Part shown: piece after piece, positions 3,340-22,850 of the stretch
Position numbering within the stretch: position 1 is the first letter of the stretch
Layout: each line of letters starts with the position of its first letter
From: Megalonaias nervosa
Taxonomy: Eukaryota > Mollusca > Bivalvia > Unionida > Unionidae
DNA length: 64,000 nucleotides
NCBI GenBank assembly: GCA_016617855.1
Contig: JAECUM010004364.1
Coordinates: 1-64,000, forward strand
Direction of reading: 5' to 3'
Made by a program: the position numbers and the translations under genes
Notes under the pieces: generated by a model
Told to the model about the DNA's origin: nothing
The model's database searches: none
The model's input: the letters and a program-made list of their open reading frames with translations, nothing else

Positions 3340-5777
3340 GGGTGGGGTGGATGGTGTGAGAAAGCTTCCCCACTCCTTGAGGTTTTTGGTTATCGTTATC
3401 TAAGAAAGATCGACCACGGCGTTATTGCCCGGATCGAGTAAACAGTAAAATAAACAATCAAATTAATGGATGGAATAACAGAAATTTGAGCAGAAATATA
3501 AAACAGAATAACACGAGCCCTAGTATGAAAAATACAACAAATTAATCAAATACATAAACAAAAATGGAAATCGAAAATGACACTTGAATGATTCGTTTTC
3601 TCATAGAGTTACAAATTTATGCGAATTTCAGTTAGCCGTTCTGTTACTGATGAACTAATTTCAGCGCATGATGGAGTGACAGATCGAACTCAGATTGCCA
3701 TGACAGCTTCACCTGATGTTTCCGGTGGTTCCCAAATCACTGCTGGTGATCGGTCTCCGTTTCCGTCTTTTTCCTTCTCTCTGCCTCTGTCTCTGTCTCT
3801 ATCTCTCTCTTTAGCCTCTTGGTTGCATAATGTGCTCTTTTAGCCACTGTACAATACAGGTGTGTAGAGCTATTTTCTTTCTTGAAAAATAAAATATAGC
3901 ACCCAGCCTAAATACATGTCAGGTTTGTCTTCTCCTGGGATCAACAAATATTCCCACTCAGATGCGCTAGGTATCGTCTATGGAACTCAACAGACCTAGC
4001 CATGGTCATTCGCGCTGATACTCAAGTAACCTATTATCATAAATCGATTTCTTGTTAGCGGCTACAGCATTCTTAACTGAAAACCATGACATAATTAGAC
4101 CTCTCTGATACTATTATTGCCCCGCTGTGGCTATAAATTTACCAGCTGACCTATCAGTCGACACACTCCTCAACTATCGGTTGAAGAGAATTCACAACTT
4201 AATCACATACGAATTAATGGACTTCTTCACTCCTTGTCTTAACTACGTTACTTTTGCTAATTAGAGATTTATTGACATACATTCCAGACACAGGAAAATT
4301 AATCCTCATCATAAATCATACAAATCATTTAAGACAGATAATTTACATATTCACCCAATTTACGTCAGAAGAAATGCATGAAATCTTACTTCATGATTTA
4401 TTTTACATACAACAACTAAATCCAAACTCATTCATATAACGAAATATTGTATGATATTCTTACAACACATCAATCATATAACGACACGATTTTTTCTGAA
4501 CTCAAGGAAAAATTGGAGCATGAATTTAAATGAATAAACTCAACAACTAATTACAAACTTACATCAATGTGTATATGGTATGTAATCGAGACTAGCCTGG
4601 TGCTTTATTCGAGCCCTAGCTCGCTTATTATCAGAGAATTCCCTCCTTCTTTTCTCTAGATACGGGTCTCACAAATTTCCGACCCACTTGTCCCGTGGAC
4701 TATTACTTAACGAGACGAGTACATTCTACTGATCTCGGAGGCAGCTCCCCCTTTCTTGGACTGATACACACACACCCGCCAAAAATCTTTATCATTCCCA
4801 TCGAAGTCAGAAAATTTTCCCCAGTTCTCCTTTATTAATAACTATTCTGGAAAATATCATTTTATGGCACCTGTTTCAAATGGACGAAATTTCCTATGAT
4901 TCTCCCCTGGTACGTATCAAGTCTGGACATTTTATCACTATGACCTCGCGTTAACATTTCATTCTCGTCTATTCCTAACTGTTAACCACGCGGGTCCTAA
5001 TTAAAATTTAACTCATGCCCCAAGCAGAGCAGATACTATACCTCGCAGTCAACAATTTATAGCGAGACTATCCAAGACATGAATCTTAATGGGTACGTGT
5101 CACGCTGACCACGAACGAATGTACTGTAAAATTATCTACAGAACTATTATACAAAATTTCGCACCATTACAGTTGTCATATTAGGTTCTCTCCCTGTCCT
5201 CAGACTTTCGTTTACGTGATACCTCTGAGGAAACTAGTTCATATGTATAACTGGTATAAATTATATTCCTAAACGATTCCTAAATGACTAAAGAATCATC
5301 GCATTCGGCTTTTCTAGCATTAAATTCACTCATGATGAATATCATTTTTATTCGTTTGTTGTATTGGACATATCATTTCATACAGTAGTGAAACGTTCCT
5401 AAAAAGTAATATTCAGAACAATCAGGGTTATGCACATTATGAAAGCATCGGTGTCAAACTGCTATTTATTTATTTTTAACCATAAACTTAACTATTTCGA
5501 ATCTATAACATTAAAGTACTTAAACATATGCTTTTAAATTAACAAATCTTAATCGCCCTGATTCCTTTTGCATTTTTCAATTACATTGCATACATATTCT
5601 TATTCTGAAATATTTAAGACATAACAATTAACATGATATTTATTGATATACTCTACAAATTGGGGAAATATTCAAGTTTTATTTTAATCAATATACATTG
5701 ATAAAATTAAATGTAACCACGCGGAATGTTGTACCCTAAAGATCTGAGCTAGCCCCTTTAAAAGATATAAAGGTGGG
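3340..5777. other. intergenic, no gene recognised
   Basis: AT-rich DNA with a pyrimidine (TCTC) tract at 3764-3812 and no ORF with recognisable domains. It ends at the left TIR of the virus-like element. Confidence 0.6.
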
Positions 5778-6013
5778 CAGCAGAGAGGGTGAACAGACCA
5801 TTTGCTCGAGTCTTTATTTATGAAAAATAAAGGTTCCTACAAAAGCTGAAAATACAAGGTCAATAACGCTAAACTAAAAACCTTTAACCGACCGAGGTTT
5901 CTCTACTTGGTTAGCTCATTTTGTTACTTTATCTTTAACGTTTGTTTTCATTTCTTATGGCGTGCTTATTTTCGTACCCGGACATTCACTGCTGGTCATC
6001 ACCCTCTCTGCTA
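5778..6013 (+). repeat. Left terminal inverted repeat
   Basis: Begins CAGCAGAGAGGGTGAACAG and matches the reverse complement of 19422-19658. The outer ~95 bases differ at only one position and the inner half is roughly 85-90% identical. The inner boundary is itself the reverse complement of the outer end (TCACCCTCTCTGCT), so each TIR has its own inverted ends. Contains an AATAAA-like word and no ORF of note. Confidence 0.95.
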
Positions 6014-6072
6014 CTCTGTTTTTATCCAAAAATGTTATCGAGACTTATACGATACCTCGACCTAGGATCATG

Positions 6073-6520
6073 TTAATTTATTGTGATAAATCCGTGTGGG
6101 GTAGCTTGTGCTTTTGAAAATAAGTTTTTGAATTTCATCATGTCCATGTCCCCTGAACACCAAGTCTGATGAATGTTTCGCAGAGTATGTGTATCGACGC
6201 CATTAAACACAACTAAAATATTACAGTTATCTCTGATCACTTTAGGTATTTGTGTATAGCGCTGGGTAACATAGATCACGTCAGTATTTTTGTGTCTGCC
6301 TCGAGAAAATATCCGAGCTGGATTTGATTGTTTGTCTAGCATCACATCATCGTATACAATGAGATTATTAATAAGTCCATCAAGGTCATCTACAGATGGC
6401 GCTTCATCAATATTGGCAATAAAATCAATAATATCATTGCCGTCTTCTACCAACAATTTTGCGTTTTCATTAAAATCTTTAAGTACTTCGTAACATCTCT
6501 GATCATCTACAGATGGCGCT
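6073..6520 (-). pseudogene. Viral packaging ATPase remnant (FtsK/HerA-type), C-terminal part
   Basis: Packaging ATPases of this virus group pump the genome into the capsid. The visible part carries a Walker-B-like LIVYDDVML, then RGRHKN, an IYVTQRY sensor-like motif and a closing HGFITIN. These are in the order typical of the A32/adintovirus family, and the C-terminus looks complete. The Walker A loop (GxxGxGKT) and the first ~100 residues are missing. Upstream, the reading frame runs straight into truncated helicase sequence at about 6520-6530, in a different frame. This looks like an internal deletion that fused helicase and ATPase remnants. It cannot hydrolyse ATP as it stands. The minus-strand 3' end sits 60 bp from the left TIR. 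Confidence 0.75.
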
Positions 6521-6522
6521 AC

Positions 6523-7073
6523 AGAATATAACTTACCCCACTTGAGCCATCTTCGTAATAATCTACACATGTTTTTAACCACTCATTTGGAGACTGTCCA
6601 ACAAAGGGTGGCAGTTGACCATGATCACCACACATTATCACAGCAGTATTTGTCGTTAATAACCAGTCAAGAAATGTTTTTAATACTTCCATCGATACCG
6701 TACAAATTTCATCCCAGATAATAATCTTAGGGATATATTTCTCACCCATCCGCGATGGAGTCCATGCATCTCCGCACCATCGGAAGAAACTGTAAGTTTG
6801 AGATTTTACCCCTCGTTCGTTCATTTCTCTGGCAAGCCTGTGTGTGGGTGTTAAAACAATCATATCTGAACTTCTAAATAATTCAATCGCGCGTATTGTT
6901 TTACCAGAACCACCACACCCATTGAGATAAACGGTTTTATGTCTGGCTACAGGATCATACACAGATGGTGCTGCCGATTTTGATACTTGATTGCTGTTCT
7001 TGTAATACATTTCCTTAATTTCAACGTTGGCAGATTCGGAATAACTAATATATTTTCTTGTTTTATTCTCCAT
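6523..7073 (-). pseudogene. SF1 helicase domain, truncated (probably fused to PolB C-terminus)
   Basis: Walker A GCGGSGKT (about residues 52-59), motif Ia VLTPTHRLAREM, Walker B IIIWDE and motif III GDHGQLPP identify a Pif1/RecD-like superfamily 1 helicase N-terminal half. Motifs IV-VI are absent because the frame ends at 6519-6523 against the ATPase remnant. The 5' side overlaps the end of the polymerase in another frame, with no clear start codon context. I infer it was once the C-terminal domain of one polymerase-helicase protein, separated now by a frameshift. A role in strand unwinding during protein-primed replication is the family expectation. Alternative: an independent helicase gene. 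Confidence 0.75.
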
Positions 7074-7079
7074 GATCCC

Positions 7080-9096
7080 AATTCACCAGCGCCAAGCAAT
7101 TTATCTAACAAATCCAAATATTTGTTATTTATATAAAATGAATCTGCGGCAACTCTAACCGTGGTATCAACAAATCTGTTTATCATCGATAATAAGTTTA
7201 TCGAAACGTACGCGAGCATCGAAGATCTCAAATGAGTAAACTGCGGTGACTCACCATCGGTATAACTAACAATTGTACCTAATTTAGTTCCATCCGACAA
7301 CCAAGCATCATTTCGGTTTGTAAATGTACCTCTCTCCGTTGTATCAGTAATTATAAAATCGAGTTCAGCATCGTCGATGATTAATCTTGTACACGTTCGT
7401 TTATGATCACACGCTCCACCCTGAGTAAACTTACCGATTATTTTTCTGCCGAGATCCTTTGCAACTTTCTCATTATTTTCTTTTCTGTATTTAGACACAT
7501 TATTAATAAGTTCAGTAATTCATCCTCGTCAAGATTAGGAAATTCTTTCTGATATCTTTTTCTGCATCAAACTTATCTGGTTCTGGCAACCAAACTTGTT
7601 TCTGCGGACGATACGATATTATCGCTTCACTTACAACCAACGATATTAATATTTTTACATCAATCATATATCGTAATAGTACTATTGGAGCCCAAAATTT
7701 TTCTGAAAAATGTCTTCCAAACCAAGCATAAACAATCGGATGGAGATTTTCCGTAAACGAATCCAGTCAGATCAAAATCTGGTAAAGTACCATTTCTCGC
7801 AACTCTGGTCATCTCGTGTGTTGGATGACCAAATCTTTCATAATGTTCAGAACACTCTCCGTATCCAAGAAAACTTCCAGGATAACACGCTACCATATCA
7901 ACTGATATAACGTCGTTATAGTCGTATTTAGTATTCCATAATCCGCCGTGTCCGTATTCGATACAACTACGTTGGACATCAACGAGAAATTCCGGCCTTG
8001 TAGGTTTCCAACCATTTTTCTCCTGAGCAAAGTGAGCAGCAACTGATGGAACGGTAAAACAGTTATTCAGTAATTGTTCGATAACATCATTATCGTCCGT
8101 GTATTTGAACGCAAGATTATTCATTTCGTCGTGGAGAAATTCTGCACGATAAATTTCTCCGCTAGGCCGTACAAACTGATCATAATTTCCGTCATCGGAA
8201 CTTTGAAACAGCCAAACAGATACAGGGTCACTCTTACTGATACTTTTGATCAAATCAAACATACAATCATGATAAAATTTAACTGTTCTGTCTCGTGGAA
8301 ATACTGTTACCGCGGACGTCCATGCATGTGCGTTATGATCAATAATCGTTATCGGAGCTCCTCTTGATTCACACTTCGATTTGTATAAAATCTCTTCGGT
8401 TAATGTCTTCACTGTTATTGGGAATTTTAATTTCTTTCCCAGTTCAGCAACGTCGCTGATAGACGCTCCGGTATCTTTAACTGTTTCTGCCCACTCGTTT
8501 ATTTTGTTTACGTCTTAGATACGTATAACACGTTTCCACGTATCGCGTTTGTGAAGTGTTCTGTAACTCGCTCAGCTACACAATTTATCCTTTGAGATCA
8601 TCAACGCTAGGTTTATCATTTAACGGATATAACGCATAAACAACTGCAGCTACAGGATACGCTCGTTCGTAATATGGTTTGTCAATACCAGTCAATGTTC
8701 CTGGTTTGGAATTTTTATTCAACGTGTCGATGCTACTTCCAACATTCACGCGGACAGGGTCGCGTTTGTCACGGATAATCCAAGTGTCGTCGTCTGTCTG
8801 AACAATAATTTTATTAGAATAAAATATCTTTGATTGTCGAGATAGTCAATGATTCTTCCTGCGCGCGAATCATTCATTGTAGCATCGATAACATTTTTGA
8901 TTCTGAATGTTGACCACACATGAGACGCATCTTCGTCGCGAAATTCCTTCTTGGCTTCACGGATACGATCAGTTACATCTTTATTTACCAAAGCCAGATC
9001 TTGCATCGAAAAACTAAATTTAGGTTTCGGCAGTTTGTCAAGATTGAATCTGGCTCCAGAAGGCTTAATTGCGGATAATCTCTCAAACTCCTGCAT
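7080..9096 (-). pseudogene. Protein-primed type B DNA polymerase, multiply frameshifted
   Basis: Replicates the element's genome. The 9096 start (ATG after AATTATAAT) opens an N-terminal ORF that breaks near 8830. Coding sense continues in other frames through about 8590 and again from about 8510 to 7660, then in pieces to 7090. Recognisable parts are a YxGG-like YGHGGL, motif A (SVDMVACYPG), a motif-B-side SEAIISY followed by GKFTQGG, and motif C (VAADSFYI), all in the correct order. I see no convincing exonuclease motifs, perhaps because of frame decay. About 670 codons remain. At least five frame changes or stops (around 8830, 8590, 8515, 7690 and 7560-7500) make this copy non-functional unless they are sequencing errors. 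It is divergent from the plus-strand gene at 9149. Confidence 0.85.
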
Positions 9097-9148
9097 ATTA
9101 TAATTAAAACAAAATATATATTTAAATTGAAGTATAAATATGAATATA
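9097..9148. promoter_or_regulatory. Divergent promoter gap between PolB and the plus-strand genes
   Basis: About 50 AT-rich bases separate the oppositely oriented starts. Each start is directly preceded by an ATATA/TATAAT-like word (AATTATAAT before the polymerase ATG; AATATA before the plus-strand ATG), as at other starts in this element. The promoter role is inferred. Confidence 0.45.
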
Positions 9149-9428
9149 ATGATTCAAACAAAGAATAAATGCAGACTGCTGATGATTGGTTATTCAACTC
9201 CTTGTAATAAAGCCTGCGTAAATGAATTCCGTGGATACCACATGCAGAGTGTTCGGAACGGAAGTCTAGGACCAAAACCGTGCTTAAAATGTGATATTGG
9301 GGTCAGGGGAGAAACTCAGTTGTGTGTGCAATGAGATGGTTAAAAAATACAGCGTGCTGAAACGATACTATGATAAAAAAATAACGCCGAAGAATCTAGA
9401 TTTTCAAAACAATGATTTAGACAAATAA
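9149..9428 (+). pseudogene. Small cysteine-rich (zinc-ribbon-like) protein, one frameshift
   Basis: The first 62 residues carry C-x3-C and C-x2-C pairs (PCNKAC; PCLKC) and then QLC, suggesting a small zinc-binding fold. The frame stops at 9332-9334, but a lysine-rich tail (about 30 codons, ending TAA at 9426-9428) continues in a second frame, so the original product was about 93 residues. I choose the second ATG (9149), which sits behind the AATATA word; an in-frame ATG at 9140 is possible. It lies 14 bp before the HNH gene and probably shares a transcript with it. No function is known to me; nucleic-acid binding is a guess. Confidence 0.6.
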
Positions 9429-9441
9429 TATTATTATACAA

Positions 9442-10023
9442 ATGGAACAAAATGAATTTGTGAAGCATCCAATCATCAAGGATTATGAAGCATCTCATGA
9501 TGGTGTAAGCAGAAACTGTCGATTAAAAAAACCAGTCGGTACTGTTGAAAATATCGGTTATCTCAGATTTAGTGTTGGAAAAGAAAGATATTACTCACAT
9601 AGATTCGTGTACGAATGTTTTCATGGAGTAATCGAAGAGGGACTTGTGATCGATCATATTGATCGGAATCCAAAAAATAATTATTTATTTAATTTACGAG
9701 TTATTACACAAAGTCAGAATTCTGCGTGTGGAAATACTGGGAGGTGTAAGAAATTTGGAAAGCGGGTTATTAAATCTGTAAATTTAGAAACAGGCGAAGA
9801 AATGATATTCCAATCAATGATTGCAGCTGCTAAATATTTTGGTATTTGCATACCTTCAGTACAACGTGTCACAGATAATATAACCAAATCGGCATTTTCA
9901 AATATATATGATCAGCTTATGATTTTAAATATCACATACATGAAGGGAGATAACGCCGTCCTCTCTGATAGAGTACTTAAGCACTTGTCCCGCTTTTTAC
10001 TGCGAAATATTACATTACTGTAG
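9442..10023 (+). CDS. NUMOD4-HNH homing-type endonuclease
   Basis: 193 residues, uninterrupted. Residues ~10-40 match a NUMOD4 segment (IIKDYEASHDGVSRN). Residues ~53-95 form an HNH_3 nuclease core (HRFVYECFHG, then VIDHIDRNPKNN with the catalytic His and the closing Asn). Residues ~112-150 resemble NUMOD1 (LETGEEMIFQS, AAKYFGI). Such enzymes nick or cut DNA site-specifically and spread with phage or large-virus genomes. It is one of few intact ORFs in this element. The last ~25 residues look unrelated to the family and may come from readthrough after the original stop. Possible roles are selfish homing or DNA processing during replication; the sequence does not decide between them. Confidence 0.85.
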   Translation: MEQNEFVKHPIIKDYEASHDGVSRNCRLKKPVGTVENIGYLRFSVGKERYYSHRFVYECFHGVIEEGLVIDHIDRNPKNNYLFNLRVITQSQNSACGNTGRCKKFGKRVIKSVNLETGEEMIFQSMIAAAKYFGICIPSVQRVTDNITKSAFSNIYDQLMILNITYMKGDNAVLSDRVLKHLSRFLLRNITLL

Positions 10024-10284
10024 CGATTTATTTTTTTGTGTGTGTGTCGTATTCAGTAACATAACTGTCTGTAGTCAGTGGATCAGTATAATTTGTAACA
10101 GAAAAGGATATTTACATCTTTTGACTCTCCTGACCAATTCAGATCATTCACAAGTTGATGTACATTATCTTGCGTGAATTACAGGTAAGTTATTTTTAGA
10201 CCTTCCAGGTATGCAATGTACACTCAGTAGGTCACGCAACATCTGTTTACAGAACTCCCAACGACATCCGGTAGATTTATTTCA

Positions 10285-10440
10285 GAAATTGAAATAAATT
10301 CACAATGCCATTTATTTATTCAGCATAATAATTTCTGAAACGTGTGTGAGATTTATTTCAGAAATTAAAATAAATTCACACTACAGTTTATTTATTCAGT
10401 ACAGGTATAGGTAATTTCATAATAATTTCTGAAACTTATG
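10285..10440. repeat. Two-copy ~80-bp repeat rich in TTTCAGAAA words
   Basis: A block with ATTTATTTCAGAAATT, AAATAAATTCACA, TTTATTTATTCAG and ATAATTTCTGAAAC occurs twice (about 10272-10348 and 10349-10437). The TTTCAGAAA/TTTCTGAAA words foreshadow the larger palindromic arrays to the right. Confidence 0.75.
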
Positions 10441-10452
10441 CTTGTAAGAATT

Positions 10453-10810
10453 GGACAGTGGCGCAGTGTTATAACTTTGGATTGTCATACTGACGCCTCG
10501 GGTTTTATCCCCGTGGCAGACGTATCGTCGACGGTGGGCGTTATGATGCCAATTGTTCTTAAAGTGGAGGGTTCCAAAACCCCAAGGAATTTCATGTACA
10601 CTTCCTCACCACGTCAAACACGTGGTGGATGTTGTTTTTCACTCACCCCGGGGTTTGATATTGGGGGGAGTGTACATGAAATTAAAAAACCTAGACAGCT
10701 CTCTGAATTTCTAAAATTTCGTTTCGTACATTTAGGAATTCGCCGGAAGTGTGTCTATGAAACCTGGAACCCCTCAAAAATAAACAGTAGGGTGATGTGG
10801 ACTCTTTAAC
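10453..10810 (+). mobile_element. Possible tRNA-derived SINE inside the viral element
   Basis: CAGTGGCGCAGTGTTATAAC resembles an A box and CGGGTTTTATCCCC a B box about 45 bases later, as in other SINE heads. The rest has no match in the window, so only the head supports the call. An ORF of 123 codons spans it but has no recognisable domain. Confidence 0.35.
10588..10683. repeat. Nested hairpin: 15-bp arms plus inner 8-bp palindrome
   Basis: AATTTCATGTACACT (10588-10602) is perfectly repeated in inverse at 10669-10683. Inside it, CACCACGT (10607-10614) pairs with ACGTGGTG (10620-10627). It could be a foldback structure, a small MITE-like insert, or an RNA hairpin. Confidence 0.8.
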
Positions 10811-10920
10811 CTTGTGACCTCACTGAAGGGTACCCCACACAAGGACATTCAGAAAGAATGTCGCCGGAAAGAAAAAGTCTCATGGGATGCCTGTGGGCCA
10901 TAAGAAAGGCCTTTTCAAAA

Positions 10921-10990
10921 AAACTAGGGTCATCAATGGAATGACCCAATAAACTAGGGTCATCAATGGAATGACCAAAAAAACTAGGAC
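10921..10990. repeat. 30-bp tandem duplication
   Basis: AAACTAGGGTCATCAATGGA plus ATGACC occurs at 10921 and 10951, followed by a partial third unit from 10981. Confidence 0.9.
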
Positions 10991-11055
10991 CTCATGGGCT
11001 TTACTGGCAATGAAGGGACCCCGTGGAAAGGTTGATTGATCATCATTGCTGCTGT

Positions 11056-11510
11056 GTATTTTTATTCTGATTCAGATTTGCATTTTTATGTTCAGAAATA
11101 TTTTTATTCTAATTCAGAAATATTTTTATTTTTCTTATTAATATTTTAATTTTTGCTATTATTATTCTGATTCAGATTTTTATTTTTATTATTCTGATTC
11201 AGAAATATTTGTATTTTTCTGATTCAGAAATATTTTTATTTGTATTATTAATATTTTTATTTTATTTTTGTTATTCTGATTCAGAAATATTTTATTATTT
11301 TTACATTCAGAAATATTTTTTATTCTGACTCAGATTTTTATTTTTATATTCAGAAATATTTTTATTCTGATTCAGAAATATTTTTATTTTTATTTTTATA
11401 TTCAGAAATATTTTATTTTTATTTTTATATTCAGAAATATTTTTGTATTATTTTTATTATTTTTACTCTTCAGAAAATTTTTATTTTGATTTAAATAAAT
11501 ATTTATTATA
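11056..11510. repeat. AT-rich array of palindromic TTCTGATTCAGAA words (left block)
   Basis: More than a dozen copies of ATTCAGAAATATTTTTATT, often with the near-palindrome TTCTGATTCAGAA. The spacing is irregular, so this is an iterated-word array rather than a simple satellite. It ends at the start of the small ORF at 11515. Confidence 0.85.
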
Positions 11511-11514
11511 TAAT

Positions 11515-11949
11515 GAATTAAAAAAATATCAATGCTGTTATTTCTGCGATTGAAAAATTACAACATGACGGTATAAAATTGCCTGTTGAACTTAATCCTA
11601 AAAAATTATTTGTGATTTTGAATCATTACAACAACGAAGATTCGAAAACAGGTATACATTACCAGCTGATTACAAATTCATAAAGTTGATTCAACAATCA
11701 ATGATGTAATCCTTGACATCAGTTACAGATACGCAGGTTAAAAAATTTGTTTCACTCGCACACTCAATAGAAAAAATTAGGTCAGAATAATCTCACGAAT
11801 ACGAAACAAAAAGAATTGTGCATGCTCGTATAAGACAGTTGAGAGAGATTATGTCTGCTTGTAATGTCAGTGATGATTGTGATTGTGAAAACGATGTCAC
11901 CAGTGACTGCAGTGGCGACGAAACTAACTGTGACTGTGGTACCATCTAA
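11515..11949 (+). pseudogene. Small broken ORF with Asp/Cys-rich C-terminus
   Basis: Reading on the plus strand gives a protein-like stretch (KLQHDGIKLPVELNPKKLF, later RIVHARIRQLREIMSACN) interrupted by a stop two codons after the ATG, a frameshift near 11625 and further stops near 11710 and 11787. It ends with a tail full of Asp, Cys and Ser (SDDCDCEND, NCDCGTI) and a TAA at 11947-11949. Coding sense is supported by codon-like composition between two non-coding AT arrays. The acidic, cysteine-rich tail suggests metal or protein binding. I do not recognise the family. Confidence 0.45.
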
Positions 11950-11984
11950 ACAACAGGGATAATTTATTTCTAAATACAGTAAAA

Positions 11985-12412
11985 AAAAAAATATTTATTT
12001 ATTTGTATTCAGAATCAGATTATAATATTTATTTAGAATCAGATAATAATATTTATTCAGAATCAGATTATAATATTTATTTTTTATTCTGATAATAATA
12101 TTTGTTCAGAATCAGGTTATAATATTTATTTTGGAATCATATAATAATATTTATTCAGAATCATATTATAATATTTATTCAGAATAAGATTATAATATTT
12201 ATTCAGAATCAGATTATAGTAATAATATTTATTTTTTATTCTGATAATAATATTTACTCAGAATCAGATTATGGTAATATTTATTTTTATTCTGATAATA
12301 ATATTTACTCAGAATCAGATTATAATATTTACTCAGAATCAGATAATAATAATAATATTTATTTTTTATTGTGATAATAATATTTACTCAGATTTATTTA
12401 GATAATTTTATT
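11985..12412. repeat. AT-rich array of TCAGAATCAGATTATAATATT words (right block)
   Basis: About a dozen copies of ATTCAGAATCAGATTATAAT / TTCTGATAATAATATTTA. The core TTCAGAATCAGA is essentially the reverse complement of the left array's word, so the two arrays face each other across the small ORF. There is no gene here. Confidence 0.85.
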
Positions 12413-12462
12413 TGACAGATTTTTTTAATTTTTTTTTTATTTTTTTTTTCCTGGTTTAGATC

Positions 12463-13907
12463 TTACAATCTCACATGCAGATTAATATGCAATGATTCAT
12501 TTCTCAAATCCAACAAGTGTCCAGTTTGGTCAGTAAGTTTGAAATGTATCCTTGATAATAGCGGATTATGTACACGCAAATAAACAGGATTAATTGGTTC
12601 TGATACAATTAAATATCCTAGTGGAACTTGTGGTGTAAATGTGTATAAAATGTATCCTTGCTGGGCTTGATTTGACTTTTCAGGGTCTACTTGATAGATG
12701 CAATCAATAACGTCACATACTAGATTAACTGCGATCGTCGATGTGAGATTTACAATACCAGGTGAAATATGGCTACCTCCACCGTGTGGATTGTTGTTGT
12801 GTTTGAGAATACCTGGTGGTGGTGCTATTTTTCTCCATGATTCAAGTTCTTTTGGAAAATATTCATCGATAAGATCATTAACTGACTTTTTCATTTCAGT
12901 AGTGTCAAATCCAGGAATTATAAATGTTGGTAATTGTTTTTCTGTTATTTTATAATGATCAAGAAATATTTGATTCAATTTTGGTGTTGTATATAATCGG
13001 TCAAGAGTAGTTGCTCTTGCTTTAATAACCCGATTAGCAAGAATTAGTTCTGACATAATCTTATTTAAGTGTTGTATCTTCTCAATTATCTGTTGTTTTG
13101 TATCATCGTTATAATAATGTAATAAGGAAGAAAATAGATTTTGTAAATCATTAAATACCCGAAAGTATTCAGATTTAGCTTCGTCTGATCTTGTTTTGAA
13201 AAATTTTTCATCAACTATATCCCTCCATAAATGCCCCTCTTGAATAGCAGTAAATACTGATCTTCCTAATTTGGGAATTTTGTGCCGTCAAAATCAGTAA
13301 AATAACCATATCTAATATCAGTCGGAATAAACTGCCATGAAGGAATTTCTCGATACTCTGGAATTTTTATGTATGTTTCTTTGTCTGTCTTAAAGTCATC
13401 AATTTTAGGTTCTGGAGGTCCATTATCAACAGGTGGAACTTCTGGCCATCCTAACATAGTTTTAATCGACGATTGATTTATATCGACGGCATAATCTGGA
13501 GTTGATATTTCTATCGCGGAAGATAATGTTGGCTCATGAACCGTGATAGCTATATTGGATTCTTTTCCTATAATAGATTTAATGCGTTGGAACTCATCGT
13601 TGATTTGTTCTATTTGATAACTGCCTGTTGGAATATCAACAACTTGCCAATCGGGAGTTCCATCAGGTTTATTCTTATTTGCAAATACTAACGAGTTGTT
13701 TGAGGGCAACGCACCGAATGATTTTGATCTGATATTTGGCCAACTACAATAAACTCGTAATTGTGCTAGCGCTAATTCTTTCGCTGGAATTGCAGTTGGA
13801 AAAACCACATTAAACTCAGGATTGGTTGAACTCGTTGATATCATTGTTGTCCTTGGCGGTGCTGTATTAACGACGATCTGTTGTAGTAGTTCTTGCGATG
13901 ACGACAT
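12463..13907 (-). pseudogene. Minor capsid/penton-like structural protein, one frameshift
   Basis: The real start is the ATG at 13907 (MSSSQELLQ), directly behind an (ATT)n tract; upstream Ile codons are microsatellite. The N-terminal part (to about 13268) has ELALAQLRVYCSWPNIR, IPTGSYQIEQIND and a TMLGWP segment. The C-terminal part (12463-13265, no start needed) ends with PVYLRVHNPLLSRIHFKLTD and a closing LHINLHVRL. Both blocks are characteristic, in this order, of one Polinton-group structural protein of about 480 codons. A single +1/-1 slip at about 13266-13270 separates them. Assignment as penton/minor capsid is from family resemblance; an anchoring or vertex role in the virion follows from that. 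It is the last gene of the right-hand array. Confidence 0.7.
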
Positions 13908-13911
13908 TATT

Positions 13912-13973
<62 letters not shown>

Positions 13974-13990
13974 CATTATTATTATTATTT
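13908..13990. repeat. (ATT)n microsatellite abutting a viral start codon
   Basis: About 80 bases of ATT/ATC repeats immediately upstream of the minor capsid ATG, where the other genes of the array have short AT-rich leaders. Confidence 0.95.
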
Positions 13991-14022
13991 TAAATCAGGA
14001 ATACTGATTTGATCTTGCTCCA

Positions 14023-14465
14023 TTATTTTTCGTCAAATACTTCATTGAAAGTTTTTATCATCGTTGTGAACTCCTCATCGGATATTTTACCATCACTGAG
14101 ATACGACGAAATCAGCGATGATAGTTTAGAATATGCTAACATCGCCGCGTGCAGTTTTATTGTGTACTCGTGTAATTTTGCGTTTGTGCATGTAGCTATC
14201 TTTTTCGCAAAAATACTGAAAATACCAGCAATTGTTATTGCAGCCGAAACATGATTGTTACAACTACAGGTGCGGTCATTGTTATTGTTGATAATATCAC
14301 ACCAGTTCCAGCGATGATAGCAGAAACTGAATACACAACTACGTCAACGACAACCACGCGTCTGCGATATTTTTTTACTTTTACTGTATAATTGTCAACG
14401 ATATTTTTTAGTTTAGTTTGCCATGTACATACTTGATTGTATCTGTACTCCTGAACGTCGACCAT
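14023..14465 (-). pseudogene. Small membrane protein with helical C-terminus, one frameshift
   Basis: The first 76 codons contain a basic segment (KVKKYRRR) followed by a hydrophobic stretch (VVVDVVVYSVSAIIAGTG, then TITMTAPVVVTI). The frame slips at about 14250, and the sense continues with a second hydrophobic segment (AAITIAGIFSIF), a helical region and a C-terminal acidic SDGKISDEEF motif, ending TAA at 14023-14025. That gives about 147 residues with two probable membrane hairpin segments. Comparable small proteins sit beside the fibre gene in related elements (my recollection). The ATG lies 11 bp after the fibre stop, implying co-expression. Function unknown. Confidence 0.6.
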
Positions 14466-14475
14466 TACATTTTTA

Positions 14476-15602
14476 TTAAGTAATTAATTGAGGTGTTTCA
14501 GCGACAAATTCCAGACACCAACGGTAAGACGCTGCGGTTAATTGTTTATCAGATGGTTCCAGTATAAATATTTCTTCGGCATCTTTATTTAACACAATAG
14601 ACACAGTTCCAAAAAAATCATCGGTTGAATGACGCCATGGATATGTGGTAAATATCCTAAATATTTTGCAGAGCTGAACACGGACAGCCTGTACACACCA
14701 GTGACTTCCGGGGTGTGTTTGATAGTGTTATTTTTCTGTGACCATGTTGATGATCCTGATGATATTGTGTATACCACATTGATGATCTGCTTGTGAGGAA
14801 TTTTAATCAGATTAGTTTTTTGAACGATATCAGGAATTCCTCTGACAATATCGTTGAGTCTTGTGTTAATATCAGAAAGTTTAATATCAACAACCGCTGG
14901 ACTTCCAAAAAATTCATTAATGGCTCTGTTTACGTTTCTACGAAAATTTAGAAACGTCTGTACGTGATTAGGAAATTCAGTTTTAAATACAATCATTCCA
15001 TCGTTGATTGTCGTCAACGAAGTTGTCATCGGGATGTTGCTATCGTTGACGTATTTCTTCGTTGCAGCGTCAAAATCTGATTCTGGTGTTCTGAGATTAT
15101 TAATTCCATTGTTGTTCATGTCGAGAAATGCACGCATCATGCCACCGTTAACTGATATGAACTTGGATTCTTGATCATCGACGTATTTTTTTGTTGCAGC
15201 GTCTTTGTCTGCGGCTGGATCTACAAGACCAATAATTTTATTATTAGTCATATTAAGATCGCCAGTCATTGAATCACCTGTTTTTCTTACACGTTCACCT
15301 ATACTATCTCGTATCGACGATGGAGTAACAACACTAGGAACAAGTTTGCCATCTTTGACGTATACAGGTATAATACCTTCTCGCGTTCCTTGAGCACGAA
15401 CAATAATATCGTTGATTGAAACATTGCTCGTCATTACTTTTCCTTCACGGTTCTGAAATACTACAAGTTCGTTTGGTTCAATATTTGCAAGATTTAGGAG
15501 GTCAGATAATTCATCATTTATCTGTTTCGTTACTTGCCTGAGTAAATCTTCACCTGATGTTTGTTGTTTGCGCTGCGATGCTCTTCCGTAAATATCTACC
15601 AT
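14476..15602 (-). pseudogene. Fibre protein with phage-tail-like repeats, C-terminal frameshift
   Basis: An N-terminal anchoring region (coiled-coil-like, residues 15-40) is followed by two copies of a tail-fibre repeat at residues ~108-143 and ~152-187 (MTGDLNMTNNKI, then DAATKKYVDD / DAATKKYVND). These are the repeats that form beta-helical or trimeric shafts in phage tail fibres. A distal domain of about 150 residues is probably the host-binding head. The frame breaks at about 14650; the sense continues in another frame to TAA at 14476-14478, giving about 375 residues. Expected role: receptor attachment at capsid vertices. The starting ATG (15602) follows AAAATATA. Confidence 0.8.
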
Positions 15603-15619
15603 TATATTTTAATGTCTGT

Positions 15620-16039
15620 TTAAAACGTTGGTGGACGACTGTGTCGTCTGGTGGTATAATCGTGCACGACTTTATGAGGTGGTTTTGTTGACAATGATTC
15701 AGCGTCGAGTACGGCGAGTACTTCACGTCCACATATTGGCGGATCGGTTATTGTCTGTGTTGGTAATATTGAATACCAGATTGGCATATTACCAGCTAAA
15801 TTAATATATCGTAAAAACTCTTTTGGTGGTTGTAACCCGTACGAGTCAAAATAAACAATTCCACGTGGATAAATCGCGTACGCAACCCAATGAGTACCAG
15901 GACGTGAACTTTCATCGAGATTAATGATACCAGTTTCAACATTGTTTGGTTTGTGCGGTAGCTGATCACGCATGAAAACACCTCTGAAGTTTTTGATGTT
16001 TAGGTTTTTATCAGCATCAAGTAAATCAAAATTGGACAT
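15620..16039 (-). CDS. Adenain-like maturation protease
   Basis: Cysteine protease of the adenovirus protease/ULP1 clan that cleaves virion precursors. From the ATG at 16039, residues 17-30 read NFRGVFMRDQLPHK, His50 lies in GTHWVAY, Asp65 in YFDSYG and Cys103 in PICG, giving the expected His-Asp-Cys triad order and spacing. Length is 139 codons. The segment after Cys103 departs from the usual family C-terminus, so a late frame change is possible. There is no stop codon between this ORF and the pX-like reading frame upstream, so the true start is uncertain and a fused product cannot be excluded. It is followed 18 bp later by the fibre ATG. Confidence 0.8.
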   Translation of the reverse strand: MSNFDLLDADKNLNIKNFRGVFMRDQLPHKPNNVETGIINLDESSRPGTHWVAYAIYPRGIVYFDSYGLQPPKEFLRYINLAGNMPIWYSILPTQTITDPPICGREVLAVLDAESLSTKPPHKVVHDYTTRRHSRPPTF

Positions 16040-16042
16040 AGG

Positions 16043-16519
16043 AAGAATCAACGATGTGTCCCGGGCAGTATTAGACCTTTTCCGTAGCACGAATGGGGAG
16101 TTCCTGGCAGTCTTAGACCATTTCCCTTTTTTTTTAGATCTTTTTATTCCTTGTCCTGTTGCTTTCTTTAATGCCATTCCAGCAGCAGTTCCAACAGCAC
16201 CAAGTGGAGCAGCTTTTGCACCAGCTGGGGCTGCAGCGGCTATCAATGCTGGTATAGCTGTGAGAAGTGGAAATATACCACCCGACTTAGCGATGTCTTT
16301 AATGGCACCCGCTGAAAGATTAAGTCGTATGCCGTTCTTTGATTGTTTGGCTTCATTGAAGTGCCTGAGTTGACGTTCTGTCAGTGATAGTTTATTTGAA
16401 CCACCTGTGATTTGTTATTTTTTAGTGATGTTTTTACTCCACAGTTTTCTTTTTATACTGATTGTATGTTTTTTAATCTGTCCAGGAATCAGACTGACGT
16501 TGACCTGATGATATGACAT
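16043..16519 (-). pseudogene. pX-like core/minor virion protein, one nonsense codon
   Basis: Starts at ATG 16519 behind AATTATA. An N-terminal beta-like VNVSLIPGQ is followed by an in-frame TAA near 16418. The same frame then continues through TERQLRHFNEAK, a LNLSAGAI helix, GGIFPLLTAIP and an Ala/Gly-rich hydrophobic run (IAAAAPAGAKAAPLG), and a basic tail (KRSKKKGKW). This mix of a hydrophobic LPLL-type segment and a basic tail is typical of the pX-like proteins of Polinton/adintovirus virions, which bind DNA inside the capsid. The frame runs on without a stop into the protease. Confidence 0.65.
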
Positions 16520-16564
16520 TATAATTATCATGAGCGATTTAATTACTGATCGCTCGCGATCCAA

Positions 16565-17895
16565 TTACATGTTTTCTACTGGGGCATCAATTACTCTCAT
16601 TCGTCCACCAACACCTTCAAGTAGCATTGTTTTATCACTGAGTATAACGGCGATTGCTCTATAACCACCAGCGGGTAGTCGAGCTACACGAGCTCGAAAG
16701 TGTATATCAATGACAGACTGCCTGAACAAATCCAAGTATTCTAGCGAAAAGTAATAGATCGGATACAGCTTTGTAAAATCCCGCTGAGATATCTGCAAAC
16801 CAGAATCAACATTCTGATCACGTCCCATAAATGTCATCAAACGATGATAAGCGCGTGCAACGTGATTGTTATCAAAATTCAGCAACACTTCTTCAGAAGG
16901 TTCTTGATGTCCATTTATCCTCAAAGAAACCTCAGTAACTCCAAGCGTATCAAACACCATTGGATTTCGTTCCTGCGAATCTATTCTGGCATTTTCCTGA
17001 AACGCGATGAATATATGTCGTGGTGCTGACACCCCCTGCTGTGATGCTATCCACCATGTGAATAACCCAGCAGCATTACTTTGAATACTGTCTGTGGTCA
17101 TCGTCAACCATGACAATGTTGATTTACCACCTTGGTCCATGAAAGAGAGTAACCGTTGTTCTTCGGCAAGTGATGAAGACATTACTGGCATCCACAACGA
17201 AAGTTTTGTTAGTATCACTTTACCTGTATTAACGGCAGCATCACGCTATATGGCATCATTGTCGGTGGCTTTTCTAACAAGTACCACTGTGTGTTTAGCG
17301 CCAAACATAACCTGCAGAATCCAAATATATGTGACAGTGGAATCGCACATGAGAACTCTTCATCACCATTCAGCATTGCTCGACGTGCTGCAAATTCCAA
17401 GTTGTAATTTTCATTCATCGATGCAACTTCAGTTCCAGCTGCATTTAGTGTTACGTTTCTATTTTCTGGATGATCAGTTGTGTCCTTGTGAAACATCATT
17501 GATGGACCAGCTGATCTTGAGTAATCATCGCTGTATCTTGCAAGGCCACGTATTGTCGTGGCAACATCAACATTTTACAGGCATGATGCAATATTCTTTC
17601 CGTCAATCATGTATGTGGCGCTGTTAAATAATGCCATGACGCCATTATTAACAAAACCAACTCGGTCACCACTTCTGTATGCTGTATCATCTGCTTTTAA
17701 AAGTCTACCTTCGATCTCAATGAATGCCTCAGCGGGCAAGAAATATCTGCTTGTATCCTGAACTTGTAATTCGATTCTTCCTCGTGCGTTAGGTACACGT
17801 GCGTCGTAAGAATAATACTGATAATCGCGCACAGACTCATCTTTGAGTACTAGCGCATCCATGTCAAATGCTGGATCAGATACACATTTAAACAT
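16565..17895 (-). pseudogene. Major capsid protein (double jelly roll), two stops and a frameshift
   Basis: Hexon-like building block of the icosahedral shell. The ATG at 17895 follows TATAATAAAG. N-terminal landmarks are DYQYYSYDAR, IELQVQDTSRYFLPAEAFI and NNGVMALFN. The middle has a CAIPLSHIFGFC hinge. The C-terminal jelly roll includes HIFIAFQ, NPMVFDTLGV, DFTKLYPIYYFSL and a closing AIAVILSDKTMLLEGVG. Total span is 443 codons, normal for the family. Breaks: an in-frame TAA at 17575-17577, a frame slip near 17290-17310, and a TAG near 17240 in the third frame. The C-terminal 217 codons are intact. Identification as MCP is strong; expression as a full protein is not possible as read. Confidence 0.85.
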
Positions 17896-17909
17896 CTTTA
17901 TTATATTTG

Positions 17910-18356
17910 TTATCGTCTAACACGAAGACCACTTCCTGCTATCAGACTAGCAGTTAAATTTTTTTCTTTTTCTGATAGTGGTACACCAGCTAACTCTGCT
18001 AGTTTTTGATTTCCAGCTTGATTTATTATTTTACTAACGTTTGCAGGCATCACTTCAGTGATGGGTAATTTTACTGGCTGAGGTTTTCGTCGTATTAATC
18101 GTGCTAGACTATCCATGATTGCTGAGAATGCTTTGCTGGCAACATCACCAACAACACCAATACCTTTTTCACGAACAACGTCAATAGCTTTCATTCCCAG
18201 TTGCTTTGCAATCGGTATTGCTTTTGGGGTTATCCTTCTAAATAGACCCTGAACAACGTCACCGAGTCCATCACCGGAGATCGCTTTATAGGTTGGTAAT
18301 CTCGAATTTATCACCCTGACCATTACAGGTCCACGTTGAGCATTATGTATAATCAT
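17910..18356 (-). CDS. Small basic virion-like protein
   Basis: 148 residues, uninterrupted. Gly-rich amphipathic DGLGDVVQGLF followed by RRITPKAIP, another helix (VVGDVASKAFSAIMDSL), then RLIRRKP and a basic C-terminus (GSGLRVRR). The size, charge and position directly upstream of the capsid gene (15 bp gap) fit a minor inner-capsid protein comparable to adenovirus pVI or pX-type proteins, but I cannot assign the family. Start context AATAAG-ATG matches its neighbours. Confidence 0.6.
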   Translation of the reverse strand: MIIHNAQRGPVMVRVINSRLPTYKAISGDGLGDVVQGLFRRITPKAIPIAKQLGMKAIDVVREKGIGVVGDVASKAFSAIMDSLARLIRRKPQPVKLPITEVMPANVSKIINQAGNQKLAELAGVPLSEKEKNLTASLIAGSGLRVRR

Positions 18357-18375
18357 CTTATTTTATATTATTTCT

Positions 18376-19392
18376 TTAATCAGTGAAATAATCATCGGCG
18401 ATTTCATTAATGAGGGACCGATACACATTAATATCCATGATACCGCCTGTAAATAATCTCTGACAAATAGCAGCTGCTTCATTAATAATTTCTGGGGAAT
18501 TATTCCTGGCTCGTTTTCCACTAATCAGAGTTTCTAATGGTTCAACATCGGCAAGGATATTATTGGGACATGGAGTAATAAGACCACTTCCTCCAGCAAC
18601 AAGACCACTTCCAGTTGTTTCTTTCTTACTTGGTGAACGTGATTCCCTCCTTCATTTGATTTCTTCAGATACTAAATCTTCTTCTTCTTTTTGTTTCCTT
18701 GTTCGTTCAACCTCTTGAAATTTCGACTTCATTTTTTTTCTTTTTGTTTCCTTGATTGTTTAGCTTCTTCAAGTTGCCGCTTCATTTCTTCTTCTCTTTG
18801 TCTCCTTTCTTGTATTACATGTTTATTACGCTCATTTACTGTCTGGATAAAAATATTAAAATCTCCAACATCTTCATCAGATCTGATTTGCGGAGTATTA
18901 GTATGGATGCGATATACATCCCTAAACGAATCGGCAGCTTTTGTAGTTTTAACATATTCTGGTTTTACATACTTATCTCTATCGTGATATCCAAACGCGG
19001 CAATGTCAAATAATTGGTTTTGGTCCTTGATAGCGGCAATACCTTCCGGCGTAAATTTTTCTGTTACCTTAATTTTGACTCATGGCAGTGGCTGTGGTTG
19101 ATCTTCAGGTTGTGGTTGAGGAGGTTGAATGGGTGGTGGTTGAGCTGCTTGAATACGCCAGCAATATCAACAGGTAATGTTTCGAGAGCTTTTTGTGTTG
19201 CCTCGGTTGCTGTAACAATTTTTTTATTGTTGGTTCGACAGTTGGTTTAAATAATTGTTCTGCACCTTCTACAAATTCCACCTGAGACTCCTGACGCGCT
19301 TGTAATTTTTGTTTGACGGAATCACGGACGGGGAGATATTTCTTAATTGCCTCTAGTCGCTCTCGAGCTAATCTAGCTGTATGAGATTCCAT
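18376..19392 (-). pseudogene. Coiled-coil, Pro/Gln-rich protein, heavily broken
   Basis: First gene of the right-hand array, 30 bp inside the right TIR. The ATG at 19392 follows ATATCAATA. An N-terminal helix (RERLEAIKKYLPVRDS) leads to a frame slip in an A-run near 19220, another slip near 19160, a proline/glutamine-rich linker (PPPIQPPQPQPEDQPQP), a stop near 19080, and a folded-looking segment (VTEKFTPEGIAAIKD; DIAAFGYHDRDKY). It ends in a charged coiled coil (ERRQREEEMKRQLEEAK), another slip near 18735, a stop near 18655 and a C-terminus ending DDYFTD at 18376-18378. Original length was about 335 residues. Function unknown; a scaffold or internal virion protein is plausible from composition and position. 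Confidence 0.55.
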
Positions 19393-19421
19393 TATTGATA
19401 TAACGATGATTTAATTTACAG

Positions 19422-19658
19422 CAGCAGAGAGGGTGACGACCAACAGTGAGTGTCCGGGTACGAAAACAAGCACGCTATAAGAAATGAAAACAAAACGTCA
19501 AAAATAAAGTAATAAAATGAGCTAACCCAATTAGAGAAATCTCGGTCATTTAGAGGCTTCGGTTTGGCGTTATTGACCTTGTATTTTCAGCTTTTGTAGG
19601 AACCTTTATTTTTCATAAATAAAGACTCGAGCAAATGGTCTGTTCATCCTCTCTGCTG
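19422..19658 (-). repeat. Right terminal inverted repeat
   Basis: Reverse complement of the left TIR. The outer end reads CCTCTCTGCTG on the plus strand and the inner end CAGCAGAGAGGGTGACG. Confidence 0.95.
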
Positions 19659-19979
19659 TTAGGGGACATTGGAATCGTTATACCACTATCTAAGAACGGA
19701 TGTTGTATTTGTTTTGTAAGTGGGGGGAAATCCTGAAAAAATATCGGCCATAATACGATGCTCGTGGACAGGAGAGAAATGCACATGATTCATTTGTATG
19801 ATTTTCACAGAAAAAGCTATAAATTAACAAATGTATTTTAAGATAAACTCGGTCTATTCCACGCTCAAATTTTATTTTACTTTATGTTTGCCACAATTTG
19901 GCGATTTACTCAAGTGGACATTGTCCAGGGTTATGGCACTGAAAAAAGTTTCCTGAGCTAAGTATACATTATCTGGTAA

Positions 19980-21684: not shown

Positions 21685-22850
21685 TCAGAAGTGCCAGGTC
21701 AAGGTCATCATAATCTGCGAAAAATAGTTTCCGCTACAAATTTTGAGTTTTGAACGGCTTTGTGTTGTAATCAGAATGGCTTCAGTTTTATCATCATTCA
21801 TCTGCAGCTTGTCACATGTCATCCATGATTTCACATCAGAAATGCACCTCTCTACGCCTTGGATGGTAGCATCAACTTCATTTGGATGGCTAGATTTGTA
21901 TATTTGGGTGTCTTGAGCGTACAATTGGTAAGACACTGGATGATGATCTATGACACTTGAGAGCGGCTGTGTGTATAGAATGAAGCGAACAGGTCCAAGA
22001 ACAGACCCCTGTGGAACACCACAACATAGATCAACAGGGCTGGAAAGCATTCCATTTGCGGATACAATTTTGTGTCCTGCCGACCAAGTAGGACTTGAAC
22101 CACAGTAAGGCTGTATCGTGAATGCCAAATACATGCTGGAGACGGTGAAGTAATATATTATGGTCTATTGTGTCAAATGCTGCAGACAAGTCAAGGAGAG
22201 TGAGAACTGTAATCTTTCCGCTATCCAAAGCAGAGAGAAGGTCATTAACTACTTTCAGAAGAGTAGTTTCAGTACTGTACAGACTGTACATTGCTAAAAA
22301 GACTGTTTGAATTCAGATGAGATACAAGTTGGGATAGAACAACTTTTTCTAAGATTTTTTTACATGAATGGGAGTTTAGAAACTGGGCAGTAGTTCTTTA
22401 AATCGTTATGGTCTAGTGTTGGTTTTCTTCAGCAGGGGTTTTTCAATGGCAGTTTTGAAAAATGATGGGAATTCCCCGGATGAGAGAGAGGTGTTAATAA
22501 CATCAGTTAGTGACGGCAATATTGGATCTAAACACTCAAGCAGCAGTGATGATGGAATTGGATCAAGTTCACATGACTTTGGTGCACTCTTCATCACGAT
22601 TGTACGTACTAAATCCATAGAGACAGGTTCAATTGCTGCTAACAGTTGCCGCTGAAATTCTGTATCGCAACTGTATGGTGACGACGAGTCAATTGAAAAT
22701 GTGTGGTCAAGCTTTTCTCTAATGTTTTGTACTTTGTCACGGAAGAAATTTGCAAACAGGTCCGGAAGTTCGACTGGAGAGAAGGTAGTTGGAAGTGGTG
22801 TGCATTTGTTCCTTGACATTAGCTTGTTGGTAATCTCGAAGAGCTCTTTG
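21685..22850 (-). pseudogene. LINE reverse transcriptase fragment (Jockey/CR1/L2-like)
   Basis: Three minus-strand pieces in different frames cover the pre-RT linker (22819-22406: SCELDPIPSSLLLECLDPIL), RT motifs 1-4 (22291-22031: STETTLLKVVNDLL, LLDLSAAFDTIDHN, WFKSYLVGR) and the palm to thumb (22134-21685: GVPQGSVLGP, then YAQDTQIY). The catalytic YADD box reads YAQD, so this copy is dead. The endonuclease and 3' end are missing. The clade is judged from motif wording only. Confidence 0.85.

Follow-up and report, generated by a model that had tools for sequence, protein, structure and literature searches.

A decayed, high-copy endogenous virus in the bivalve Megalonaias nervosa that probably belongs with the Tlr1-type polinton-like viruses rather than with the Polintons

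The polinton-like viruses (PLVs) of the Aquintoviricetes (e.g. Tetraselmis viridis virus S1) and the transpovirons replicate with a protein-primed type B DNA polymerase that lacks an exonuclease and is fused to a superfamily-1 (SF1) helicase, an arrangement termed pPolB-S1H (PMC11071308, PMC12721341; statements cited to papers here and below reflect the portions of those papers available to us). Such 'Tlr1-like' replicases have the order terminal protein (TP), vOTU domain, palm and SF1 helicase, have no exonuclease and carry a motif C without its first Asp; published examples come from protist elements and giant-virus plasmids (PMC11071308). The integrated Tlr1 element of Tetrahymena thermophila combines a palm-SF1 helicase fusion with an rve integrase, an ATPase and a capsid module (PMC11071308, PMC4642659). 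Animal elements of the Polinton/PLV kind are nearly all canonical, with only cnidarian capsid genes outside the cluster (PMC10120064). Here we describe an element in a 64,000-nucleotide stretch of M. nervosa contig JAECUM010004364.1 (the window; assembly GCA_016617855.1) that is near certainly an endogenous virus relic. From its sequence and that of its relatives we put the probability at about three in four that it is a Tlr1-type PLV rather than a Polinton or adintovirus, i.e. a defunct provirus with an internal deletion, from a high-copy family with at least 137 scored places in the genome.

The family resembles Tlr1 in the features listed above and differs from it in its animal host and in a phospholipase A2 gene; the likeness drawn here is one of gene content and layout. 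Most PLVs lack rve (PMC11071308), whereas the present family is integrated, high-copy, resident in an animal and equipped with rve, and transpovirons, unlike it, have no capsid genes. Full-text literature searches, which did not cover Repbase, found no description of a Tlr1-type family in an animal, and with that scope we do not claim a first report.

The assignment turns in part on the replicase layout. A palm-like region and an SF1 helicase lie in one protein, with the helicase C-terminal, in each of two sibling copies that retain a single open frame: 876 aa in L034, with polymerase-like pieces followed by the helicase (AAA_19, E 1.6e-12), and 822 aa in L035, where N-terminal and polymerase-like pieces precede the beginning of the helicase. 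In an alignment of 18 replicase rows (the window, L017, L034, L035 and 14 stop-free copies picked from the 137) motif A, VDMVACYPGSF, hardly varies. The two rows that extend further contain GRKIIGKFTQGG and (A/S)TDSFY, and the first Asp of motif C is missing in the rows that reach this motif, all motifs having been read by eye. The helicase is SF1 and fused, and a Pfam scan of window frames (84 of 119 stop-to-stop frames, gene pieces being searched separately) found no SF3 helicase. No domain model matched a vOTU domain ahead of the palm; an HNAHAWT motif is seen there, whose interpretation is our assumption. This layout looks like the exonuclease-less 'Tlr1-like' pPolB-S1H of PLVs and transpovirons. 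Because of it, and because no chromodomain was found, the element appears to fall outside the definitions of the Polintons and adintoviruses.

Relatives of the window copy are abundant in the same assembly (2.19 Gb in 54,709 contigs). Its terminal inverted repeat (TIR) has at least 40 scored genome matches including the window's two, the others at 88–92% identity (1,931 first-look candidates), and its polymerase-like piece has at least 137 including the window, the others at 75–86% amino-acid identity and with open frames of up to 876 aa. Both counts, which are more than chance, are lower bounds given the 25,011 polymerase-like candidates. Stretches were fetched at TIR matches on 10 contigs picked from the best rows, and in all 10 the element genes adjoin the TIR in the window's gene order, with local losses. 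The original prediction had proposed a search for sibling copies sharing the TIR and had named repeats empty of this interior as the finding that would speak against it; the siblings exist, and each TIR-bearing contig fetched carries the genes.

The comparison also uncovered an internal deletion. The alignment of the window copy to its siblings ends at 6550–6552 and restarts at 6550–6555, with about 2.5 kb of extra sequence between these points in all seven siblings compared (2,499–2,537 bases in the three measured). The stretch contains an integrase (its rve match has E 5.5e-9 in one sibling and 1.2e-5, below cut-off, in another), a parvovirus-type phospholipase A2 (Phospholip_A2_4, E 2.5e-9 and 7e-7), the C-terminal end of the helicase (a weak UvrD_C_2 match, E 0.003) and the front of the ATPase, whose frame including the front scores E 3e-10 (Pox_A32). 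The sibling integrase frames have what we take to be the D-D-E pattern, and the phospholipase frames presumably the YCGPGT loop and HD pair of that enzyme; no chromodomain was found at E 1 in four sibling integrase C-terminal pieces. Having lost this stretch, the window copy lacks an integrase and retains the ATPase and helicase in part. Breaks interrupt its polymerase and capsid frames as well. The element is thus not the 'nearly complete' genome that had been proposed, and the idea of a whole viral genome captured in an animal lineage holds for the animal host and not for the wholeness of this copy. No rve match occurs in the 84 of 119 window frames scanned, and a reading without integrase, drawn from the window alone, was dropped once the siblings showed rve; the absence is an accident of the window copy, and a single copy can mislead.

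The ends of the element lie at 5776 and 19660. The matched TIRs that had been predicted are present, as is most of the gene block between them; the TIRs are about 240 bp each, with slightly corrected ends (Table 1), and comprise inverted arms of 97 nt (5778–5874/19562–19658, 98%), 40 nt (5909–5948/19488–19527, 88%) and 75 nt (5941–6015/19420–19494, 92%). Element termini consist of AG followed by CAGCAGAGAGG, with AG in 9 of the 11 ends listed (one end per element) and GG in its place in the window copy. Among eight two-ended elements five are flanked by a perfect 5-bp duplication (C33214, C9587, C12562, C28920 and C14505, in which the left terminus is altered); duplications were scored by eye, tolerating mutated terminal dinucleotides, and a random pair of window 5-mers agrees fully in 0.00175 of draws. 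The left and right TIRs of the window copy differ by a Kimura two-parameter (K2P) distance of 0.083, which would correspond to an age of about 8–40 million years, assuming that the TIRs were identical at insertion and a rate of 1–5 x 10^-9 per site and year. The inner edge of the TIR bears an inverted copy of the terminal 15-mer (14–15 of 15 bases, in all 12 TIRs examined from six elements, the window and five siblings), giving every TIR inverted ends of its own.

A double-jelly-roll capsid gene is probable. Two single-sequence structure models were poor (pLDDT 39 and 36, the first for the larger capsid piece). In a Foldseek search of the PDB with the capsid model the best row is the mavirus major capsid protein (MCP; E 0.02), rows 2–11 belong to other proteins, chiefly adhesins and pilins of bacteria, and double-jelly-roll virus capsid chains, many of them redundant, make up 21 of the best 50 of 310 rows. 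A search of BFVD ranked a virophage MCP second and a MELD virus protein third. As no row reaches E 0.001 this fold evidence is suggestive only, and the double-jelly-roll similarity on which the original prediction had staked itself is found in sub-threshold matches. A PDB sequence search with the capsid gave only E 0.35, and a capsid piece of L018 had no DJR-like_dom match.

The ratio of replacement to silent substitution rates (dN/dS), computed for the window copy against 5–8 sibling stretches per gene, is 0.21–0.68 for 17 of 18 gene pieces; the remaining one, at the right end, has a value of 1.30. Nearly all genes thus show purifying selection between copies. Values are 0.21, 0.26 and 0.30 for the capsid pieces, 0.25 for the ATPase, 0.29 for the helicase and 0.27 for the main polymerase piece. 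Since post-insertion decay brings the ratio closer to 1, selection was probably stronger before insertion than these values indicate. With dN/dS below 0.7 in 17 of 18 pieces and low in the capsid, the virus probably had a virion stage. Divergence between copies is greatest in the fibre, both at silent and at replacement sites. The right-end exception is the frame at 18732–19079, whose neighbours have values of 0.32–0.47.

Several results weigh against the Tlr1-type assignment. Even at E 10 Pfam gave no match to the polymerase-like region, a palm profile searched against the PDB gave a best E of 0.38 to an unrelated entry, and an hhalign comparison with a canonical palm yielded a lower score than all 20 shuffles; PDB sequence searches with polymerase and helicase pieces gave nothing useful. 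Given these negative profile tests, motifs, order and fusion are all that identifies the palm. Tlr1-like replicases can end in an HNH-like tail, but the cysteine-rich one that follows the sibling helicase has no Pfam support, the capsid Pfam scores fall below cut-off (DJR-like_dom, 25.6 bits in the window against the curated 27; E 1.5e-5 in sibling L029), and three of the eight two-ended elements lack a perfect duplication (agreement of 4/5 in the window copy, 3/5 in C11317 and none in C14239). The element might be read as an ordinary, if diverged, Polinton/Maverick-adintovirus, with an exonuclease-bearing pPolB and integration by rve plus chromodomain. AG-type ends, long TIRs and an animal host are shared with that group (Eupolintoviridae), and the genome offers a direct comparison, since a PF03175 profile detects a distinct second family (75 scored candidates of nearly equal score, with exonuclease and palm parts) and does not match the window family. 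This canonical family, found on contigs C5856 and C7000 among others (L036, L057, L058), looks young: its pPolB frames are 1,366–1,368 aa long in 37 of the 75 candidates (hand count), and the copy at L058 has an rve plus Chromo integrase (Chromo, E 2e-9) and two BIR (inhibitor-of-apoptosis) frames nearby. The integrase of the window family (siblings only, being deleted in the window) is 27–30% identical to the canonical one (best E 3e-16) and the ATPase 25–31% (best E 2e-10). Other pieces, including capsid, protease and helicase, have no convincing match in 19.6 kb of canonical sequence, where we did not recognize a capsid gene of the canonical family. With integrase and ATPase as the only matches, the two families share integrase/ATPase ancestry and differ in their replicase. 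Eupolintoviridae have an exonuclease in pPolB, no fused helicase and a chromodomain in the integrase, whereas here the helicase is fused to the polymerase-like region and four integrase pieces have no chromodomain; vertebrate Maverick duplications are 6 bp (PMC8097293) rather than 5 bp. A diverged Polinton is accordingly unlikely, and the earlier placement among Polintons and adintoviruses stands for the wider Polinton/PLV assemblage (TIRs, ATPase, probable capsid, sibling rve) and fails for the narrower group. The earlier suggestion of a distinct lineage is favored by the replicase, the 5-bp duplication and the restriction of canonical similarity to ATPase and integrase, and not by gene order, fibre or HNH gene, on which it had been based.

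It could also be asked whether the family is a self-copying transposon that keeps virus genes and never forms particles, as its copy number and the integrated state of every copy read here would allow. The capsid is as constrained as the ATPase, helicase and main polymerase piece (0.21–0.30 against 0.25–0.29), and the diversity of the fibre would fit host-receptor use, which makes such a transposon very unlikely. A relic of a mavirus-like virophage is suggested by the sub-threshold mavirus and virophage MCP rows and by the fact that mavirus too pairs rve with an exonuclease-less pPolB (PMC11071308, PMC10328495), but those rows come from a poor model, and the helicase of mavirus is a separate SF3 enzyme rather than a fused SF1; we consider this origin highly improbable. 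No point was found in support of an assembly contaminant, which is scarcely credible for a sequence in at least 137 scored places, many with stops, that has 5-bp insertion duplications and lies in the same window as a reverse-transcriptase fragment and an exon of host dipeptidyl peptidase 3 (DPP3). The exon (53353–53856; Peptidase_M49, E 2e-34; human DPP3, E 1e-42) is far closer to human than to yeast DPP3 (148 against 61 bits), which shows the host to be an animal. At 21685–22164 lies the reverse-transcriptase fragment (RVT_1, E 9e-11) and at 49069–49509 a weak CENP-B_N match (E 0.005), both of them host repeats in the flank.

If the element is a Tlr1-type PLV, the live virus would have had a linear double-stranded genome, replicated by protein priming through a pPolB-S1H enzyme that lacks an exonuclease. 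Its particle would have been a double-jelly-roll capsid bearing a variable fibre, the phospholipase perhaps serving to breach a membrane on entry, and the integrase would have joined the viral genome to host chromosomes. The inserted copies would then have decayed, the window copy losing 2.5 kb and its polymerase and capsid frames breaking. A further, tentative proposal, which we think rather doubtful, is that the family represents an undescribed animal-infecting branch of Tlr1-type PLVs, characterized by rve, 5-bp duplications, pPolB-S1H and phospholipase A2, in at least 137 places beside an apparently young canonical adintovirus family. If so, the pPolB-S1H branch reached animals; a high-copy family of this type would widen its host range and bear on how often an rve integrase was gained, and a decayed Tlr1-type and a canonical family in one genome would make the contrast between the two testable within a single host.

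Table 1. Features of the element and its immediate flanks in the window
Feature	Position	Strand	Remarks
Element span	5776–19660		corrects earlier ends 5778–19658
Left target-site duplication, AGGTG	5771–5775		4/5 bases match right side
Left TIR	5776–6015	+	inverted arms
Packaging ATPase, C-terminal part only	6073–6552	-	Pox_A32 E 8e-6
Deletion junction, ~2.5 kb lost	6550–6552		7/7 siblings compared
SF1 helicase, first part	6550–7082	-	AAA_19 E 1e-9
pPolB-like replicase region, several broken frames	6947–9153	-	motif A DMVACYPGSF near 7870–7899; no Pfam match
HNH endonuclease gene, phage-like	9421–10023	+	HNH_3 E 2e-14
AT-rich spacer with tandem arrays, part of element	10024–12462		24-bp unit at 12006–12351; stretches common to siblings
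Candidate minor virion protein	12463–13287	-	no convincing Pfam match; dN/dS 0.39
Second candidate minor virion protein frame	13266–13994	-	no Pfam match; dN/dS 0.34
Fibre gene	14589–15608	-	PHROG tail-fibre E 1e-12
Candidate adenain-type protease	15620–16414	-	Peptidase_C5 E 0.12 only; dN/dS 0.41
Probable MCP, three broken pieces	16565–17916	-	DJR-like_dom E 9e-6, below cut-off
Conserved 150-aa frame	17910–18362	-	in 8 sibling stretches; dN/dS 0.35
Right-end frames, pieces of 91, 116, 101 aa	18376–19410	-	in siblings; dN/dS 0.32, 1.30, 0.47
Right TIR	19420–19660	-	inverted arms; genome matches
Right target-site duplication, AGGGG	19661–19665		4/5 bases match left side

The remaining genes of the window copy are listed in Table 1. 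The ATPase, helicase, HNH and fibre genes that had been predicted have profile matches, the capsid match is sub-threshold and that of the protease weak, and the polymerase and minor virion frames have none that convinces; we name the latter two frames as candidate minor virion proteins from their position. The HNH gene has its best tblastn rows in phage records at 30–38% identity, in which capsid and fibre pieces had no match, and the one PDB sequence row for the fibre, an amidase (E 0.003), is taken as chance. An NCBIfam scan of window pieces gave only weak helicase-type rows for the helicase and chance-level rows for the others. Capsid, helicase and polymerase pieces scanned against viral contigs had no match, and two degenerate DNA patterns found 2 and 6 loci there, all unrelated.

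An AT-rich 24-bp tandem array at 12006–12392 separates the replication from the virion gene block, and arrays resembling it are present in siblings L018, L020, L022 and L027. Near some fetched copies (L029, 8737–9874; L030; L033, 5401–6160) there are right-end genes of related elements that have diverged further, which suggests clustered or nested insertions of other subfamilies.

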